Part shown: piece by piece, positions 11,545-23,157 of the stretch | How the letters are laid out: every line of letters begins with the position of its first letter | Numbering within the stretch: position 1 is the stretch's first letter | Assembly: GCA_021849745.1 (NCBI GenBank) | Contig: JAJZSN010000024.1 | Span: forward strand, 1 to 35,182 | DNA length: 35,182 bases | Source of the DNA: Bacillota bacterium | Lineage (GTDB): Bacteria; Bacillota; GCA-003054495; Carboxydocellales; JAJZSN01 | Direction: 5' to 3' | Notes under the pieces: model-generated | The model's database searches: none | Told to the model about the DNA's origin: nothing | Seen by the model: only the letters and a program-made list of their open reading frames with translations | Position numbers and translations under genes: made by a program

Positions 11545-11640
11545 TTCCCATCCTTCGGCGGCTGGCGATCATAGTAGTGCTGCTACATTAGACCCATGAC
11601 TTTGCGTCGCCAACTTTCGCTGGTTTTGCCCTTATCGGGT
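11545..11640 (-). promoter_or_regulatory. Cyclic di-GMP-I (GEMM-I) riboswitch aptamer
   Basis: Reading the minus strand, the segment runs AAGGGCAAAACC, then CAGCGAAAGTTGG, GACGCAAAG, then GGGTCTAA, GATCGCCAGCCGCCG. These are the hallmark pieces of the GEMM-I fold: the GNRA-type tetraloop hairpin (GCGAAAGT), the GACGCAAAG joining strand that holds the ligand, and the tetraloop receptor side. It is followed by a terminator and then the LysM/peptidoglycan-binding gene. GEMM-I switches are known upstream of wall, surface and motility genes in Clostridia. Whether the ligand turns the gene on or off cannot be decided by eye. Confidence 0.93.
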
Positions 11641-17077: not shown

Positions 17078-17106
17078 TTGACCCCAACAATATACTATGG
17101 TAAAAT
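17078..17106 (+). promoter_or_regulatory. Sigma-A promoter of the dap/dpa operon
   Basis: TTGACC (17078-17083) and TAAAAT (17101-17106) with an ideal 17-bp spacer, about 40 bp upstream of the lysine aptamer. Confidence 0.75.
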
Positions 17107-17368: not shown

Positions 17369-17399
17369 ACGGCTGCCGGAATCTCCGGCAGCCGTTTTT
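17369..17399 (+). terminator. Lysine-riboswitch terminator
   Basis: ACGGCTGCCGGA (17369-17380), loop ATC, TCCGGCAGCCGT (17384-17395), then T-rich to 17399. A perfect 12-bp stem between the aptamer and dapB. Confidence 0.92.
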
Positions 17400-17458: not shown

Positions 17459-18256
17459 ATGATTCGCGTACTAGTGGCCGGGGCCGCCGGTAGGATGGGC
17501 CGGGAGGTGGTCAAGGCGGTAGCCGGGGATGAAAATCTACAACTGGCAGGCGCTGTAGATTTTAATCACCTGGGCCAGGATGCTGGAACTTTGGCCGGCG
17601 TAGGAGAACTGGGGGTAGTTGTAACCCGGGACTTAGCCCAGACCATAAAGGATACTCAAGCTCAGGTGGTGGTAGACTTCACTAACCCGGATGCGGTTTT
17701 GGACAATATCAAAACCATCCTCAACAGCGGAGCATTTCCGGTTGTTGGTACTACTGGTCTTGACCAGAAGGATCTGGATGAAATTGACCAACTGGCCAGG
17801 GCCAAAGGCCTGGGTTGTCTAGTGGCCCCCAACTTCGCTATTGGGGCCATCCTGATGATGAAGTTTGCGGCCCAGGCAGCCAAATACATGCCCCATGTGG
17901 AGATCATCGAACTTCACCATGACCAGAAGCTGGACGCACCGTCAGGGACGGCCCTGAAAACAGCAGAAGCCATCATGAAGGTGCGGGAAAGTTTTCGCCA
18001 GGGCCACTTTAACGAATTCGAGAAAATCCCTGGTTCCCGAGGAGGGGACTACGAGGGTATGCGTATTCACAGCGTCCGCTTACCAGGGTATGTAGCCCAT
18101 CAGGAGGTAATTTTTGGCGGATTGGGCCAGAGCCTCGTCATCAGGCATGACTCCATCAGCAGGGAATCCTTTATGCCCGGCGTGGTTTTAGCTTGTAACA
18201 AGATTTTGGACTATAAAGGAGTGGTTTATGGGTTAGAACACCTCATTGCCGAATAA
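17459..18256 (+). CDS. dapB: 4-hydroxy-tetrahydrodipicolinate reductase
   Basis: DapB reduces 4-hydroxy-tetrahydrodipicolinate to tetrahydrodipicolinate on the way to diaminopimelate and lysine. The 265-residue product starts at ATG 17459 after AAGGAGGT; the longer open frame from 17276 runs through the riboswitch. The N-terminal NAD(P)-binding motif is VAGAAGRMG (6-14), followed by VVDFTNP, GTTGLDQ, APNFAIGAIL and the catalytic/substrate block ELHHDQKLDAPSGTA (about 149-163). It is the first gene after the lysine riboswitch and competes with DpaAB for the same substrate pool. Confidence 0.97.
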   Translation: MIRVLVAGAAGRMGREVVKAVAGDENLQLAGAVDFNHLGQDAGTLAGVGELGVVVTRDLAQTIKDTQAQVVVDFTNPDAVLDNIKTILNSGAFPVVGTTGLDQKDLDEIDQLARAKGLGCLVAPNFAIGAILMMKFAAQAAKYMPHVEIIELHHDQKLDAPSGTALKTAEAIMKVRESFRQGHFNEFEKIPGSRGGDYEGMRIHSVRLPGYVAHQEVIFGGLGQSLVIRHDSISRESFMPGVVLACNKILDYKGVVYGLEHLIAE

Positions 18257-18273
18257 CTAAATAGATGACCAAG

Positions 18274-18302
18274 CACCACCTTCCTGGACTACTCATATAC
18301 TG
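18274..18302 (+). promoter_or_regulatory. Candidate sigma-K promoter for dpaA
   Basis: CACC (18274-18277), a 16-bp spacer, then CATATACTG (18294-18302). This matches the sigma-K consensus mACm-N16-CATAnnnTA except for the last base. The B. subtilis spoVF (dpaAB) operon is known to be sigma-K dependent. Transcription would start near 18309. Confidence 0.55.
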
Positions 18303-18337
18303 GAATTACCTATGGGCCTTTTGTTCAGGAAGGAGGT
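18275..18337 (+). promoter_or_regulatory. Anti-Shine-Dalgarno hairpin over the dpaA ribosome binding site
   Basis: ACCACCTTCCTG (18275-18286) pairs with CAGGAAGGAGGT (18326-18337) in 11 of 12 positions (one A-A mismatch), with a 39-nt loop. The right arm contains the whole dpaA AGGAGG (18331-18336). The left arm overlaps the candidate sigma-K -35/spacer, so only read-through mRNA from dapB would contain both arms. Confidence 0.65.
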
Positions 18338-18345
18338 TTAGTTCA

Positions 18346-19236
18346 TTGAATTCCAAACTACAAGGGATGAAGATAGCCATTCTCGGAGGGGATCGCCGTC
18401 AGTTAATCCTTATTGATCAATTGGTTCGCTTGGGGGCCATTATCCAGGTAATTGGTTTGCCCACCGACCCGGACACCAGAATCAGGGAATGTGCAACCGT
18501 GGCCGAAGCCGTTACCGGAGCTGATGTGGTTATTCTCCCCATGCCGGGAACCAATGATGAAGGTAAGATTCACGCCGTTTTCAGCAAGATCCCCCTACTG
18601 CTAACCCCTGAAATCATGGATCGGATACCTCAAGAGGTACCCATCCTGGTGGGGGCCGCCAAACCATACCTGAAGAATCTGGTGGCAGCCAGGAGTCGGG
18701 AAATGATTGAAATAGCCGAAATAGACGACGTAGCTATCCTTAACTCCATCCCCTCTGCAGAGGGCGCTATCCAGTTGGCTATGGAAGAATCCCTCATAAC
18801 CATTCACGGCAGCAATTCCTTTGTATTGGGTTTTGGCCGGTGTGGGATTACCCTGGCCCGGATGCTCTGTGGTTTGGGAGCCAAGGTTACCGCTGTGGCT
18901 AGAAAATCAGCTGATTTAGCCAGGATTTACGAAGCCGGTTATGAGGCTTGTACCTTTGGGGAGATGGAAGATTTAATCCAAGAGGCGGACTTTATTTTTA
19001 ACACAGTCCCCGCTCCAGTCTTACCCGCAGGGTTGCTGAAGAAAGTCAAACCCGAAGTGGTTATCGTGGATATTGCCTCCACACCCGGCGGCACAGATTT
19101 TAAAGCCGCTGCCAACTTAGGGCTTAAAGCAATCCTGGCTCCCGGTCTACCAGGTAAAGTTGCTCCCAAAACAGCGGGGGATATCCTGGCCCGGGTGGTG
19201 CCTGACCTTATTACCACAGCCCTTGGTTTGAACTAG
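18346..19236 (+). CDS. dpaA: Dipicolinate synthase subunit A
   Basis: DpaA (SpoVFA) with DpaB oxidises dihydrodipicolinate to dipicolinate, the calcium-chelating spore core metabolite. I choose the TTG at 18346: AGGAGG lies 9 bases upstream, and the resulting 296 residues and N-terminus (MNSKLQGMKIAILGGDRRQL) match the Bacillus protein (about 297). The earlier in-frame ATG at 18265 would put the hairpin and ribosome binding site inside the gene. Motifs: the N-terminal GGDRRQL block, NSIPSAEGAIQLA, the nucleotide-binding VLGFGRCGITLAR (about 158-170) and the C-terminal PGLPGKVAPKTAGDIL. It would act in the mother cell. Confidence 0.94.
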   Translation: MNSKLQGMKIAILGGDRRQLILIDQLVRLGAIIQVIGLPTDPDTRIRECATVAEAVTGADVVILPMPGTNDEGKIHAVFSKIPLLLTPEIMDRIPQEVPILVGAAKPYLKNLVAARSREMIEIAEIDDVAILNSIPSAEGAIQLAMEESLITIHGSNSFVLGFGRCGITLARMLCGLGAKVTAVARKSADLARIYEAGYEACTFGEMEDLIQEADFIFNTVPAPVLPAGLLKKVKPEVVIVDIASTPGGTDFKAAANLGLKAILAPGLPGKVAPKTAGDILARVVPDLITTALGLN

Positions 19237-19280: not shown

Positions 19281-19865
19281 ATGCGATTAAAAAAAGTGGG
19301 CGTAGGATTTGCGGTAACCGGTTCTCATTGTACCCTTGATCATATTTTTCCCGAAATAGAGAAGCTGAAACAGGAAGGAGCCGAAATATATCCCATCCTA
19401 TCCCCGGCAGTAAACCAGACCGTAACCAGGTTTGGTGCTCCTGTCAAATGGAAAGAACTCTTTGCTCAAATAACGGATAAACCTATTATCACGGATATCG
19501 TGGAAGCCGAACCAATCGGCCCCAATAAACTGTTGGATGTGCTGATAATTGCTCCTTGTTCCGGCAATACCGTTGCCAAATTAGCCAATGCGATTACCGA
19601 TACCCCGGTTTTGATGGCGGCCAAGGCTCATTTGCGGAATCAGCGTCCGGTTATCTTAGCCATCTCCACTAATGACGGCTTGGGCCTCAACGCCAAGAAT
19701 ATCGGTATATTATTGAATACCAAAAACATTTATATGGTTCCCTTCGGGCAGGATAACCCTATGGGTAAGGCCAATTCATTGGTAGCCAAGATGGAGTTAA
19801 TTCTAGAAACGACCTGTGAAGCGATGCAAGGCAGACAACTTCAGCCCATTCTTATTGCCAAGTAA
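19281..19865 (+). CDS. dpaB: Dipicolinate synthase subunit B
   Basis: DpaB (SpoVFB) is a flavoprotein of the phosphopantothenoylcysteine decarboxylase fold that partners DpaA. The ATG at 19281 follows GGAGGTG (19269-19275) and gives 194 residues, close to the 200 of Bacillus. An in-frame GTG at 19272 lies inside that site and is not used. Visible: VGVGFAVTGSHCTLDHIFPEI at the N-terminus (flavin fold with the TGSHC motif), IIAPCSGNTVAKLANAITD (flavin-phosphate binding) and the C-terminal NIYMVPFGQDNPMGKANSLV. It lies 44 bp after dpaA. Clostridia lacking DpaAB use another route, so its presence helps place the organism. Confidence 0.95.
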   Translation: MRLKKVGVGFAVTGSHCTLDHIFPEIEKLKQEGAEIYPILSPAVNQTVTRFGAPVKWKELFAQITDKPIITDIVEAEPIGPNKLLDVLIIAPCSGNTVAKLANAITDTPVLMAAKAHLRNQRPVILAISTNDGLGLNAKNIGILLNTKNIYMVPFGQDNPMGKANSLVAKMELILETTCEAMQGRQLQPILIAK

Positions 19866-19951: not shown

Positions 19952-20962
19952 GTGAAGAAGTACAATGTAGTAGTAATAGGAGCCACCGGTGCGGTGGGTC
20001 AAGAAATCCTCAAAATTCTGGTTGAACGAAATTTTCCCGTCGACCAGTTGCGCCTCTGTGCCACAGCCCGGTCTGCCGGTAAAATTATGACCTTCCAAGG
20101 CAAGGAATATACCGTAGAAGAAACCAGGGCCGAATCTTTTGAGAATATGCATGTGGCCCTCTTTGCCGGAGGTTCCGCCAGTAAGGATTTTGCCCAAGAC
20201 GCGGTAAAAAGAAATTGTGTGGTGATTGACAACAGCAGCGCCTTCCGGATGGACCCCAACGTACCCTTGGTGGTGCCTGAGGTTAACCCTGAAGATGTTA
20301 AATGGCACAAAGGTATTATTGCCAACCCCAACTGTTCCACCATCCAAATGGTAGTTGCCTTGAAACCTATCCATGATGCGGCCCGCATTAAGCGGGTGGT
20401 GGTCTCTACCTATCAGGCTGTTTCCGGCGCAGGTATTGAAGCCATTGAAGAATTAACCGCCCAGGTCAAAGCCATCTACGAAGGTGGCGAAATCAAGAAG
20501 GAAGTGTTCCCATACCAGATTGCTTTTAACCTTATTCCTCATATCGATGTCTTTGGTGACATGGATTACACTAAAGAAGAATGGAAAATGGTTAAGGAAA
20601 CCCAGAAAATCATGCATGACGATGCCATTCAGGTTACCGCCACCACGGTAAGGGTGCCGGTCTACCGGAGCCACTCCGAATCCATCAATATCGAAACCGA
20701 AAAGAAACTATCCTCTCAACAAGTTAAAGAGATTCTGGCCAAAGCGCCGGGGGTAGTAGTGATGGATAACATCGCCAACAAAGAATATCCCATGCCCCTT
20801 TACACATCTGACCGGGATGAGGTATTCATAGGGCGGATTAGGGAGGATAATTCCATCTCCAATGGCATCAACCTGTGGTGTGTGGCCGACCAACTACGCA
20901 AAGGGGCAGCCACCAATGCTGTGCAGATTGCCGAAACCATGATTAAATACGATATTCTTTAG
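19952..20962 (+). CDS. asd: Aspartate-semialdehyde dehydrogenase
   Basis: Asd reduces aspartyl phosphate to aspartate semialdehyde, the branch metabolite for lysine, threonine and methionine. A GTG start at 19952 after AAGGAGGG gives 336 residues. Motifs: NADP-binding VVIGATGAVGQE (7-18), FAGGSASKDFA, the catalytic Cys in NPNCSTIQM (Cys128) and the VVSTYQAVSGAG loop. The active-site His lies in the segment VPVYRSHSES. In B. subtilis asd and dapG-dapA follow spoVF in the same order. Confidence 0.97.
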   Translation: MKKYNVVVIGATGAVGQEILKILVERNFPVDQLRLCATARSAGKIMTFQGKEYTVEETRAESFENMHVALFAGGSASKDFAQDAVKRNCVVIDNSSAFRMDPNVPLVVPEVNPEDVKWHKGIIANPNCSTIQMVVALKPIHDAARIKRVVVSTYQAVSGAGIEAIEELTAQVKAIYEGGEIKKEVFPYQIAFNLIPHIDVFGDMDYTKEEWKMVKETQKIMHDDAIQVTATTVRVPVYRSHSESINIETEKKLSSQQVKEILAKAPGVVVMDNIANKEYPMPLYTSDRDEVFIGRIREDNSISNGINLWCVADQLRKGAATNAVQIAETMIKYDIL

Positions 20963-21015: not shown

Positions 21016-22242
21016 ATGCGTTTTATTGTTCAGAAATTCGGCGGCACTTCAGTCGCCACTCCCGAAAAAAGACAACAGGTTGCCCAGAAGATTATTGGGG
21101 CCCAGGCTGAAGGGTTTGCACCGGTGGTGGTGGTCTCTGCTATAGGTCGGACTGGAGACCCCTATGCCACCGATACCCTGATTAACTTGGCCCGGGAGGT
21201 ACATAGTGACGTTCCCGGAAGGGAACTGGATTTGCTAGTGGCATGCGGGGAGATTATTTCCGGGGTAATCCTGGTCAACACCCTGATTGCCAGGGGGCAC
21301 CCGGCTGTACTGCTTACCGGCGGCCAAGCCGGAATCATTACCGACGGGAATTTTGCCAATGCCCGGATTGAAAAAATTCAACCCGGTAAAATTCTTGAAC
21401 AGGCCAAAGCCGGCAATATTGTGGTGGTAGCCGGTTTTCAAGGGGTAACCAGGGACGGGGAAGTAACCACTTTAGGCCGCGGCGGCAGTGATACCACTGC
21501 GGCGGCATTAGGAGTAGCCTTGGATGCCGAATATATCGATATCTTTACCGATGTGGAAGGTATCATGACCGCTGATCCCCGTCTTGTTGAAGATGCCCAG
21601 ACCATTGATGTGGTCACCTATAACGAGACCTGTCAACTGGCCCACGAAGGGGCTAAGGTAATCCATCCCCGGGCGGTGGAAATAGCCATGCAGAAAAACA
21701 TCCCTCTGCGGGTTAAGTGCACTTTTTCCAATGAACCCGGAACCCTGGTCACCAATCAGGGTGAACTTGCTGAAGTAACGGGTATTCAGAGCGACCGGCT
21801 GATTACCGGGATTGCTCATATATCAGGTTTAAGCCAGATAAAGATTTTCACCAAGAATTACCCTGATATCAAAGACGTTCAGATGAAAATCTTTAAAGCC
21901 TTGGCACTGGCCGATATAAGTGTTGATTTTATCAACATCTACCCTCATCTGGTGATTTTCACCGTTCGAGATGAGGTGGGGCCTAAAACGGTAGAGATTC
22001 TTGCCAATATGGGTTTTGAAGCAGAAATACAAAAAGAATGTGCCAAAATTGCCGCCGTAGGTGCCGGAATGACCGGTATTCCTGGAGTGATGGCCGGTAT
22101 TATAGAAGCTTTAACTAAAGAAGGCATCACAATTCTTCAGTCAGCTGATTCCTATACCACCATCTGGTGTCTGGTCCAGAACGATGATATGGCCAAAGCC
22201 GTCCGGGCGTTGCACAGGCAATTTGGTTTGAATAAAGCATAA
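21016..22242 (+). CDS. dapG: Aspartokinase I (diaminopimelate-regulated type)
   Basis: Aspartokinase phosphorylates aspartate, the first step of the pathway. The ATG at 21016 follows GAGGTGG (21001-21007) and gives 408 residues, near B. subtilis DapG (404). An in-frame GTG at 20983 is possible but has no site. It begins MRFIVQKFGGTSVATPEKR; further kinase motifs are LGRGGSDTTAAALGVAL and DVEGIMTADPR. Two C-terminal ACT domains (about 265-408) bind the allosteric amino acid. The type, meso-DAP-inhibited as in DapG, is inferred from gene context. Confidence 0.95.
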   Translation: MRFIVQKFGGTSVATPEKRQQVAQKIIGAQAEGFAPVVVVSAIGRTGDPYATDTLINLAREVHSDVPGRELDLLVACGEIISGVILVNTLIARGHPAVLLTGGQAGIITDGNFANARIEKIQPGKILEQAKAGNIVVVAGFQGVTRDGEVTTLGRGGSDTTAAALGVALDAEYIDIFTDVEGIMTADPRLVEDAQTIDVVTYNETCQLAHEGAKVIHPRAVEIAMQKNIPLRVKCTFSNEPGTLVTNQGELAEVTGIQSDRLITGIAHISGLSQIKIFTKNYPDIKDVQMKIFKALALADISVDFINIYPHLVIFTVRDEVGPKTVEILANMGFEAEIQKECAKIAAVGAGMTGIPGVMAGIIEALTKEGITILQSADSYTTIWCLVQNDDMAKAVRALHRQFGLNKA

Positions 22243-22278: not shown

Positions 22279-23157
22279 ATGGATTTTGGTAGAATGCTCA
22301 CCGCCATGGTTACTCCCTTTGACAACAATCTAGCCGTAGATTACCAACAGGCCGGAAAAATTGCGGAGTATCTCGTTAATAACGGTTCAGACGGTATCGT
22401 TGTGGCAGGCAGCACCGGGGAAGGGGCTACCCTGACCCATGAAGAAAAGATCAATTTATTTAAACTGGTCAAGGATACAGTGGGCCACCGGGCCAAAGTC
22501 ATTGCCGGTACCGGTTCCAATAGTACCGCTGATTCCATTGCCCTGACCCAAGCCGCCGAAAAGGCCGGTGTGGATGGGGTTATGCTGGTGGTTCCTTATT
22601 ACAATAAACCATCCCAGGAAGGGATTTACCGTCATTTTAAGGCCATAGCTGAAAGTACTTCATTACCTATTATGTTATATAATATTCCTAGTCGTACCGG
22701 CATCAACATGGTACCTTCTACCGTATCTCGCTTGGCTGAAATTGATAACATTGTGACCCTCAAAGAATCCGCCGGTATGATTGATCAAGTTTCAGAACTG
22801 GTACGTTGCGTGCCTGATGATTTTAAGATTTACAGCGGCGATGATTCCCTAACCTTACCAATGTTATCCTTGGGCTGCCACGGTATTGTAAGCGTATGCG
22901 CCCATGTTATCGGGAATCAGATACAAAGTATGATTAAGGCCTATTTGACCGGCAATGTAGCTGAGGCTGCCCAACTTCACCGTCAACTTTTCCCTGTCTT
23001 TAAAAATCTTTTTATTACCACTAATCCTGTACCCGTAAAACTTGCCATAGGTTTACTTGGACTCAATCCCGGTGGGGTAAGACCTCCCCTTATCGAAGCC
23101 ACTACTGAAGAATTTGCCGTGGTAAAAAAGACCTTGGAAGAATTGAAATTGATTTAA
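22279..23157 (+). CDS. dapA: 4-hydroxy-tetrahydrodipicolinate synthase
   Basis: DapA condenses pyruvate with aspartate semialdehyde; its product feeds DapB (lysine, DAP) or DpaAB (dipicolinate). The 292-residue TIM-barrel protein has the Schiff-base lysine in VTLKESAG (Lys162), the catalytic Tyr134 in LYNIPSRTG, the [10 protein letters not shown] pyruvate site (44-53) and [10 protein letters not shown]. The start ATG at 22279 follows AGAGGTGA, 36 bp after dapG. It is the last gene of the operon, closed by a strong terminator. Confidence 0.97.

Follow-up and report, generated by a model that had tools for sequence, protein, structure and literature searches.

The dapB-dpaA interval and its hairpin

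The window analysed here is the whole 35,182-nucleotide stretch of contig JAJZSN010000024.1 (assembly GCA_021849745.1) from a Bacillota bacterium. It carries the operon dapB-dpaA-dpaB-asd-dapG-dapA, which sits after a lysine riboswitch and lies between ymxH and an RNase J gene, in the order ymxH, dapB, dpaA, dpaB, asd, dapG, dapA, RNase J gene (Table 1). A riboswitch and terminator precede dapB, and a scan of 18254-18346 gave no terminator call in the dapB-dpaA interval, suggesting that the operon is read in growth at low lysine and dpaA along with it; this transcription from dapB into dpaA is an inference, as no RNA data are at hand. The promoter listed ahead of the riboswitch is only a candidate, since the number of sigma-A-like consensus matches in that region is not above chance. 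Elsewhere, the window holds a c-di-GMP-I riboswitch (RF01051) at 11554-11640 on the minus strand (65 bits).

Table 1. Features of the lysine-dipicolinate operon and of the hairpin ahead of dpaA (SD, Shine-Dalgarno)
Feature	Position	Strand	Basis or remark
Sigma-A-like promoter TTGACC-17-TAAAAT, TG before -10; candidate vegetative operon promoter	17078..17106	+	consensus scan, 10/12 matches
Lysine riboswitch aptamer RF00168	17144..17334	+	99.7 bits (gathering score 30), E 1.4e-25
Intrinsic terminator, likely riboswitch expression platform	17369..17395	+	12-pair stem, then T run
dapB, 4-hydroxy-tetrahydrodipicolinate reductase	17459..18256	+	TIGR00036, 291 bits, above cut-off
Sigma-K-type -35 element GCACC, overlapping left arm	18273..18277	+	pattern scan; conserved in relatives
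Left (anti-SD) arm ACCACCTTCCTG	18275..18286	+	upstream of predicted start, so present only in read-through mRNA; cognate pairing tests
Sigma-K-type -10 element CATATACTG, in hairpin loop	18294..18302	+	pattern scan and relatives
Expected start of short mRNA, about 18309	18305..18311	+	inferred from spacing
Right arm CAGGAAGGAGGT, containing dpaA SD	18326..18337	+	sequence, fold, opening energies
dpaA (spoVFA), dipicolinate synthase subunit A, TTG start at 18346	18346..19236	+	TIGR02853 (NCBIfam spore_dpaA) 352 bits, NF006162 381 bits, both above cut-off
dpaB (spoVFB), dipicolinate synthase subunit B	19281..19865	+	TIGR02852, 285 bits
asd, aspartate-semialdehyde dehydrogenase	19952..20962	+	TIGR01296, 476 bits
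dapG, aspartate kinase	21016..22242	+	NF006068, 600 bits; family match starts at internal ATG
dapA, 4-hydroxy-tetrahydrodipicolinate synthase	22279..23157	+	TIGR00674, 369 bits

Between dapB and dpaA, ACCACCTTCCTG is complementary to CAGGAAGGAGGT at 11 of 12 positions, and a sigma-K-type promoter (GCACC, 16 bp, CATATACTG; 18273-18302, with CACC at 18274-18277) overlies the left arm and the loop. The left arm precedes the -10 element, and a transcript from this promoter, whose start is inferred, would thus lack the 5' arm. The promoter meets the sigma-K pattern of AC in the -35 element, a -10 element CATAnnnT and a spacing of about 16 bp; the sigma-E consensus has ATA at -35 in place of the AC of sigma-K (PMC3789822). 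GCACCN15-17CATATANTG matches the window once and none of 100 shuffles, and the looser CACCN15-17CATANNNT matches three times against 0.84 expected. This anatomy is established at the level of sequence. A first-pass annotation, made without database searches, had given the same arms and coordinates, the 11/12 pairing and the CACC-16 bp-CATATACTG promoter, all of which held exactly, as did its claim, on sequence and comparative data, that the promoter lies inside an anti-SD hairpin; it had not mentioned the lysine riboswitch, which strengthens the case.

The fold of 18257-18350, proposed there as a check, reaches -27 kcal/mol (z -2.4; 3 of 200 shuffles equally good); taken alone, it is only moderately unusual, and the decisive evidence is comparative. 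Reading the hairpin as an intrinsic terminator or attenuator was rejected: it has no U run, and the right arm continues into TTAGTTCATTG and the start codon. An Rfam search of five loci, up to E 0.1, returned the lysine riboswitch only and no known family for the hairpin.

Promoter conservation and cognate pairing in relatives

A phylum-wide search for dpaA found a match in 310 of 399 genomes; no relative closer than order was in the sample. The first comparative set comprised 110 dpaA upstream regions from 37 families, and with a second set of genomes, fetched after the first, the whole comparison covers dpaA genes from relatives, about 180 in all. A promoter of the sigma-K type is near-universal, with GCACC or a close variant, usually 16 bp, and CATATAnTG in nearly all of the 110 loci and in most of the later ones. 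The final G of CATATACTG departs from the B. subtilis consensus but is the norm in these relatives. The retained CATAnnnTA that the first-pass annotation had proposed to look for is found as CATATAnTG, 16 bp from GCACC. Moreover, arms and promoter follow the same order as in the window, and the predicted start lies about 20-90 nt ahead of the dpaA start codon. In most families dapB is directly upstream of dpaA, in most without a terminator between them, and pairing persists with the -35 element anywhere between 0 and about 98 nt past the dapB stop. A lysine riboswitch was found near dapB in 8 of 25 loci scanned, a search limited to the sequence around each locus.

Selection on the arms was assessed with a swap test, which compares the duplex energy of each family's -35 to -10 segment with its own SD segment against that with swapped partners and needs no fixed alignment. 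Over 37 families, the cognate sum was -750.9 versus -592 +/- 19.5 for swapped partners (z -8.1). The excess was likewise seen in the 47 families without a detected terminator (z -9.6) and in 13 families absent from the discovery set (z -3.8, p 5e-5), with cognate arms gaining 4 to 5 kcal/mol per locus over non-cognate ones (z -9.4). Controls were far weaker: shuffling the left segment gave z -0.8 to -1.3, keeping the -35 block GCACCnCC while shuffling the rest of the left arm z -1.0 to -2.7, reversing the left arm z -2.7, and using DNA further upstream z -1.5 and -1.6. Masking the SD 9-mer left an excess of z -5.3. Base composition as the source of the excess is rejected on the shuffled, reversed and upstream controls. 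Two imperfect controls remain, namely the left arm against the first codons of dpaA (z -3.0 to -4.4), a signal possibly arising from some stems that reach into the start, and the leader after the -10 element against the SD (z -6.1), two segments that overlap in sequence.

The left arm varies by family and the SD flanks vary with it, for example ACCTCTTTCGACA/TGTCGAAAGGGGGT in L030, ACCTCCCGGTTGC/GCAAACGGGAGGT in L216 and CACTTCCC/GGAAAGTG in L265. Within single families, compensation followed column by column is sparse, since the SD arm does not vary and the register shifts, and the swap test took the place of classic column covariation, which is weak there. The arms are under selection for cognate pairing, with compensating change between families, as the sequences and statistics demonstrate; the covariation that the first-pass annotation had proposed to seek in relatives is borne out between families and remains sparse within them. 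The hairpin is common, not universal. At least 11 of the 47 families without a terminator (e.g., f6, f41, f93 and f95) had neither excess pairing nor a detected terminator; insulation is therefore not obligatory.

One of these families, f95 (L092, L098, L101 and L102), has another stem, of ACTGGATAGT at the -10 element with ACTATCCAGT just before the SD, replacing the -35 arm. In L101 both sides of this stem have changed with pairing kept, and most of its left arm would likewise be absent from the short mRNA.

Related layouts were also noticed at other genes of the window's own genome. L123 (minus strand, position 1500) has CACCTTTTGCCCATTG-CATAATCT and then CAATGGGAAAGGGGT, shortly ahead of a start codon, as a second case of a sigma-K/E-like promoter within a hairpin that masks the SD; it lies downstream of genes for a sensor kinase and response regulator pair and upstream of Flp-pilus-like genes. 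L128 (position 1500) has a GCACC-16-CATATAGTG promoter between mutM and a gene for a YtaF-like sporulation membrane protein, with a terminator-like hairpin ahead. L126 (minus strand, position 1500) has a CACC-16-CATATGAT promoter past gpsA and its terminator, ahead of a CotS-like kinase gene, with partial SD pairing.

Terminators and predicted SD accessibility

A terminator lies between dapB and the promoter in 28 loci, 25 of f17, two of f135 and one of f51; two of these terminators (L038 and L083) were added by eye. The median dapB-promoter spacer in this set is 165 nt versus 22 nt, and the set as a whole has no excess pairing (z -0.3). The f17/f135 group retains the promoter, usually has an intrinsic terminator in the long spacer, mostly lacks CCTCC after the -35 GCACC, and carries arms that are not complementary above chance. 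The loss of pairing in this group, where a terminator usually blocks read-through, is shown by sequence and statistics. The single terminator-scored locus of f51 (518 nt spacer) still pairs. Furthermore, the hairpin is present and no terminator was detected in f70 (L196, z -3.2), the sister family of f17/f135, which came from one class search with f17 and has a spacer of 39 nt. Since f17 and f135 form one group, the terminator contrast represents only one or two evolutionary events, and p values calculated by locus (1e-5) overstate it. Terminator and SD mask appear to be exchangeable insulators, a suggestion that rests on these one or two events.

A different layout occurs in L227-L256, from the class of G024 (apparently Bacilli, and including large-genome relatives), where no dapB was found upstream in 30 of 30 loci. 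About 20 of the 30 have a conserved sigma-A-like promoter (TTGnnn...TAAAAT or TACAAT) in the last 60 nt before dpaA, ending 5-8 nt ahead of the SD; a vegetative transcript would therefore begin at or in the dpaA SD. This could conceivably be another means of keeping dpaA silent in growth.

The predicted structures differ between the two mRNAs. The long RNA has 67% of its SD bases paired with the -35 to -10 segment, against 5% paired with any base past the predicted start (40 families). Over 138 loci, opening the SD costs a median of 9.9 kcal/mol in the long and 3.0 in the short RNA, and 6.0 when the part upstream of the start is shuffled, versus 4.5, 3.6 and 5.1 kcal/mol, respectively, in the 27 terminator loci of f17/f135. 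The difference between long and short exceeds 2 kcal/mol in 36 of 48 families. In the window, opening costs about 12-14 kcal/mol in the long versus 5-6 in the short RNA, insensitive to the exact start base across 18305-18315, and 10-11 kcal/mol if the long RNA begins at 18200; the short mRNA keeps a weak SD hairpin of about -8.6 kcal/mol. The accessibility difference is a clear property of the model predictions, folds and opening energies alike, which place the SD in a paired state in the read-through transcript. That DpaA would be translated less from the long than from the short mRNA is inferred, without translation data. The first-pass annotation had inferred that vegetative read-through mRNA does not translate dpaA and mother-cell mRNA does; the comparison supports this view, which is still an inference.

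Alternative readings, proposed mechanism and its meaning

The complementarity could be a by-product of two motifs without selection for a hairpin, as a sigma-K -35 region reads GCACC(T)CC and any SD reads GGAGG. Indeed, non-cognate arms already reach about -17 kcal/mol per locus, meaning that part of the stem is given by these motifs. However, cognate arms add 4 to 5 kcal/mol, the excess survives SD masking (z -5.3) and shrinks to z -1.0 to -2.7 after shuffling outside GCACCnCC, and f17, which retains the promoter, mostly lacks CCTCC after it and has no pairing excess, making this reading very unlikely.

Translational coupling, in which ribosomes finishing dapB open the hairpin so that dpaA is translated from read-through mRNA, is also very unlikely. 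In its favor, the dapB stop lies just 0-15 nt ahead of the left arm in several families, and an in-frame ATG at 18265 in the window, 8 nt past the dapB stop, could permit reinitiation. Against it, the distance extends to about 98 nt, outside the reach of a terminating ribosome, and just 17 of 133 loci have an upstream in-frame start that is not interrupted by a stop. The ATG at 18265 has no SD, and an N-terminally extended DpaA starting there was rejected on this ground and on the same rarity of upstream in-frame starts.

Regulators such as SpoIIID or GerE bind at promoters, and the left arm overlaps one, but the reading of the inverted repeat as the DNA site of such a sporulation regulator, not an RNA structure, has very little in its favor, because families differ in arm sequence with complementarity kept, G-U pairs are freely accepted, and neither the separation of the arms nor their register is constant; a fixed protein site would require none of this.

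We consider a dual role, promoter and SD mask, the likely explanation, without transcript-start, RNA-level or translation data. In this explanation, one stretch would serve as DNA as the mother-cell (sigma-K) promoter of dpaA-dpaB-asd-dapG-dapA and as RNA as the anti-SD strand. In read-through from the riboswitch-controlled dapB, the -35/spacer half would fold onto the dpaA SD and block dpaA translation, while the downstream lysine genes would still have start sites of their own. Sigma-K RNA polymerase in the mother cell would start inside the loop, yielding an mRNA without the left arm and with a freer dpaA start, and this downstream start would also bypass the lysine riboswitch. Use of sigma-K, the start site, read-through during growth and how far translation is lowered are all inferred. 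Sigma-K is reported to transcribe dpaA in C. difficile and B. subtilis (PMC3789822), in agreement with the statement of the first-pass annotation on B. subtilis spoVF; for the organism studied here, sigma-K use is an inference.

The type of mechanism is already known. In phage T4, the SD or start codon of e, soc, 49 and I-TevI is sequestered in long early transcripts; for e and the genes like it, the DNA that encodes the 5' strand of the hairpin also holds the late promoter, and late mRNA thereby escapes (PMC3014915). The parallel to e/soc, drawn in the first-pass annotation, holds in that dpaA has its own promoter in the masking hairpin and a predicted paired SD in read-through. Unlike the phage lysis and late genes with their T4 late promoters, dpaA is a cellular developmental gene with a sigma-K-type promoter in a riboswitch-controlled metabolic operon, across many bacterial families. 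A sporulation precedent missing from that annotation is B. subtilis sigG (spoIIIG), where a large hairpin is proposed to block translation of spoIIG read-through and cannot form in mRNA from its own promoter (PMC5942855). Both are sporulation genes downstream of an earlier operon, with a mask limited to read-through mRNA; sigG, however, is a forespore sigma-factor gene with read-through within sporulation, whereas dpaA is a mother-cell enzyme gene with read-through from a vegetative lysine operon. The transposase starts of IS10 and IS50 are folded over only in read-through transcripts from outside. Unlike that self-protection of mobile elements, which involves no developmental promoter, the dpaA mask carries a sporulation-type promoter. 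Finally, the operon begins like other lysine riboswitch (RF00168) operons, with a standard riboswitch and terminator; the dpaA mask, unlike the riboswitch, is a separate ligand-free element within the operon. In the literature searched, no paper joined dipicolinate, lysine riboswitch and sporulation, and a lysine-riboswitch survey (PMC5584792) does not mention spoV or dipicolin. The dpaA element is a new member of this known kind, notable for its breadth, its metabolic setting and its apparent exchange with a terminator.

A bolder reading, which we regard as no more than possible, is that a sporulation promoter in an anti-SD arm is a general device of spore-formers outside Bacilli for placing developmental genes in growth operons, interchangeable with a terminator and used by other spore genes too. 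For dpaA itself, the dual role offers a specific, testable answer to how a spore-only enzyme can be encoded among lysine genes and yet not drain dihydrodipicolinate in growth, and would also explain how the synthesis of dipicolinate is freed from the lysine riboswitch. A mechanism known from phage, with sigG as the one parallel proposed in sporulation, would thereby be extended to an element kept in many bacterial families.
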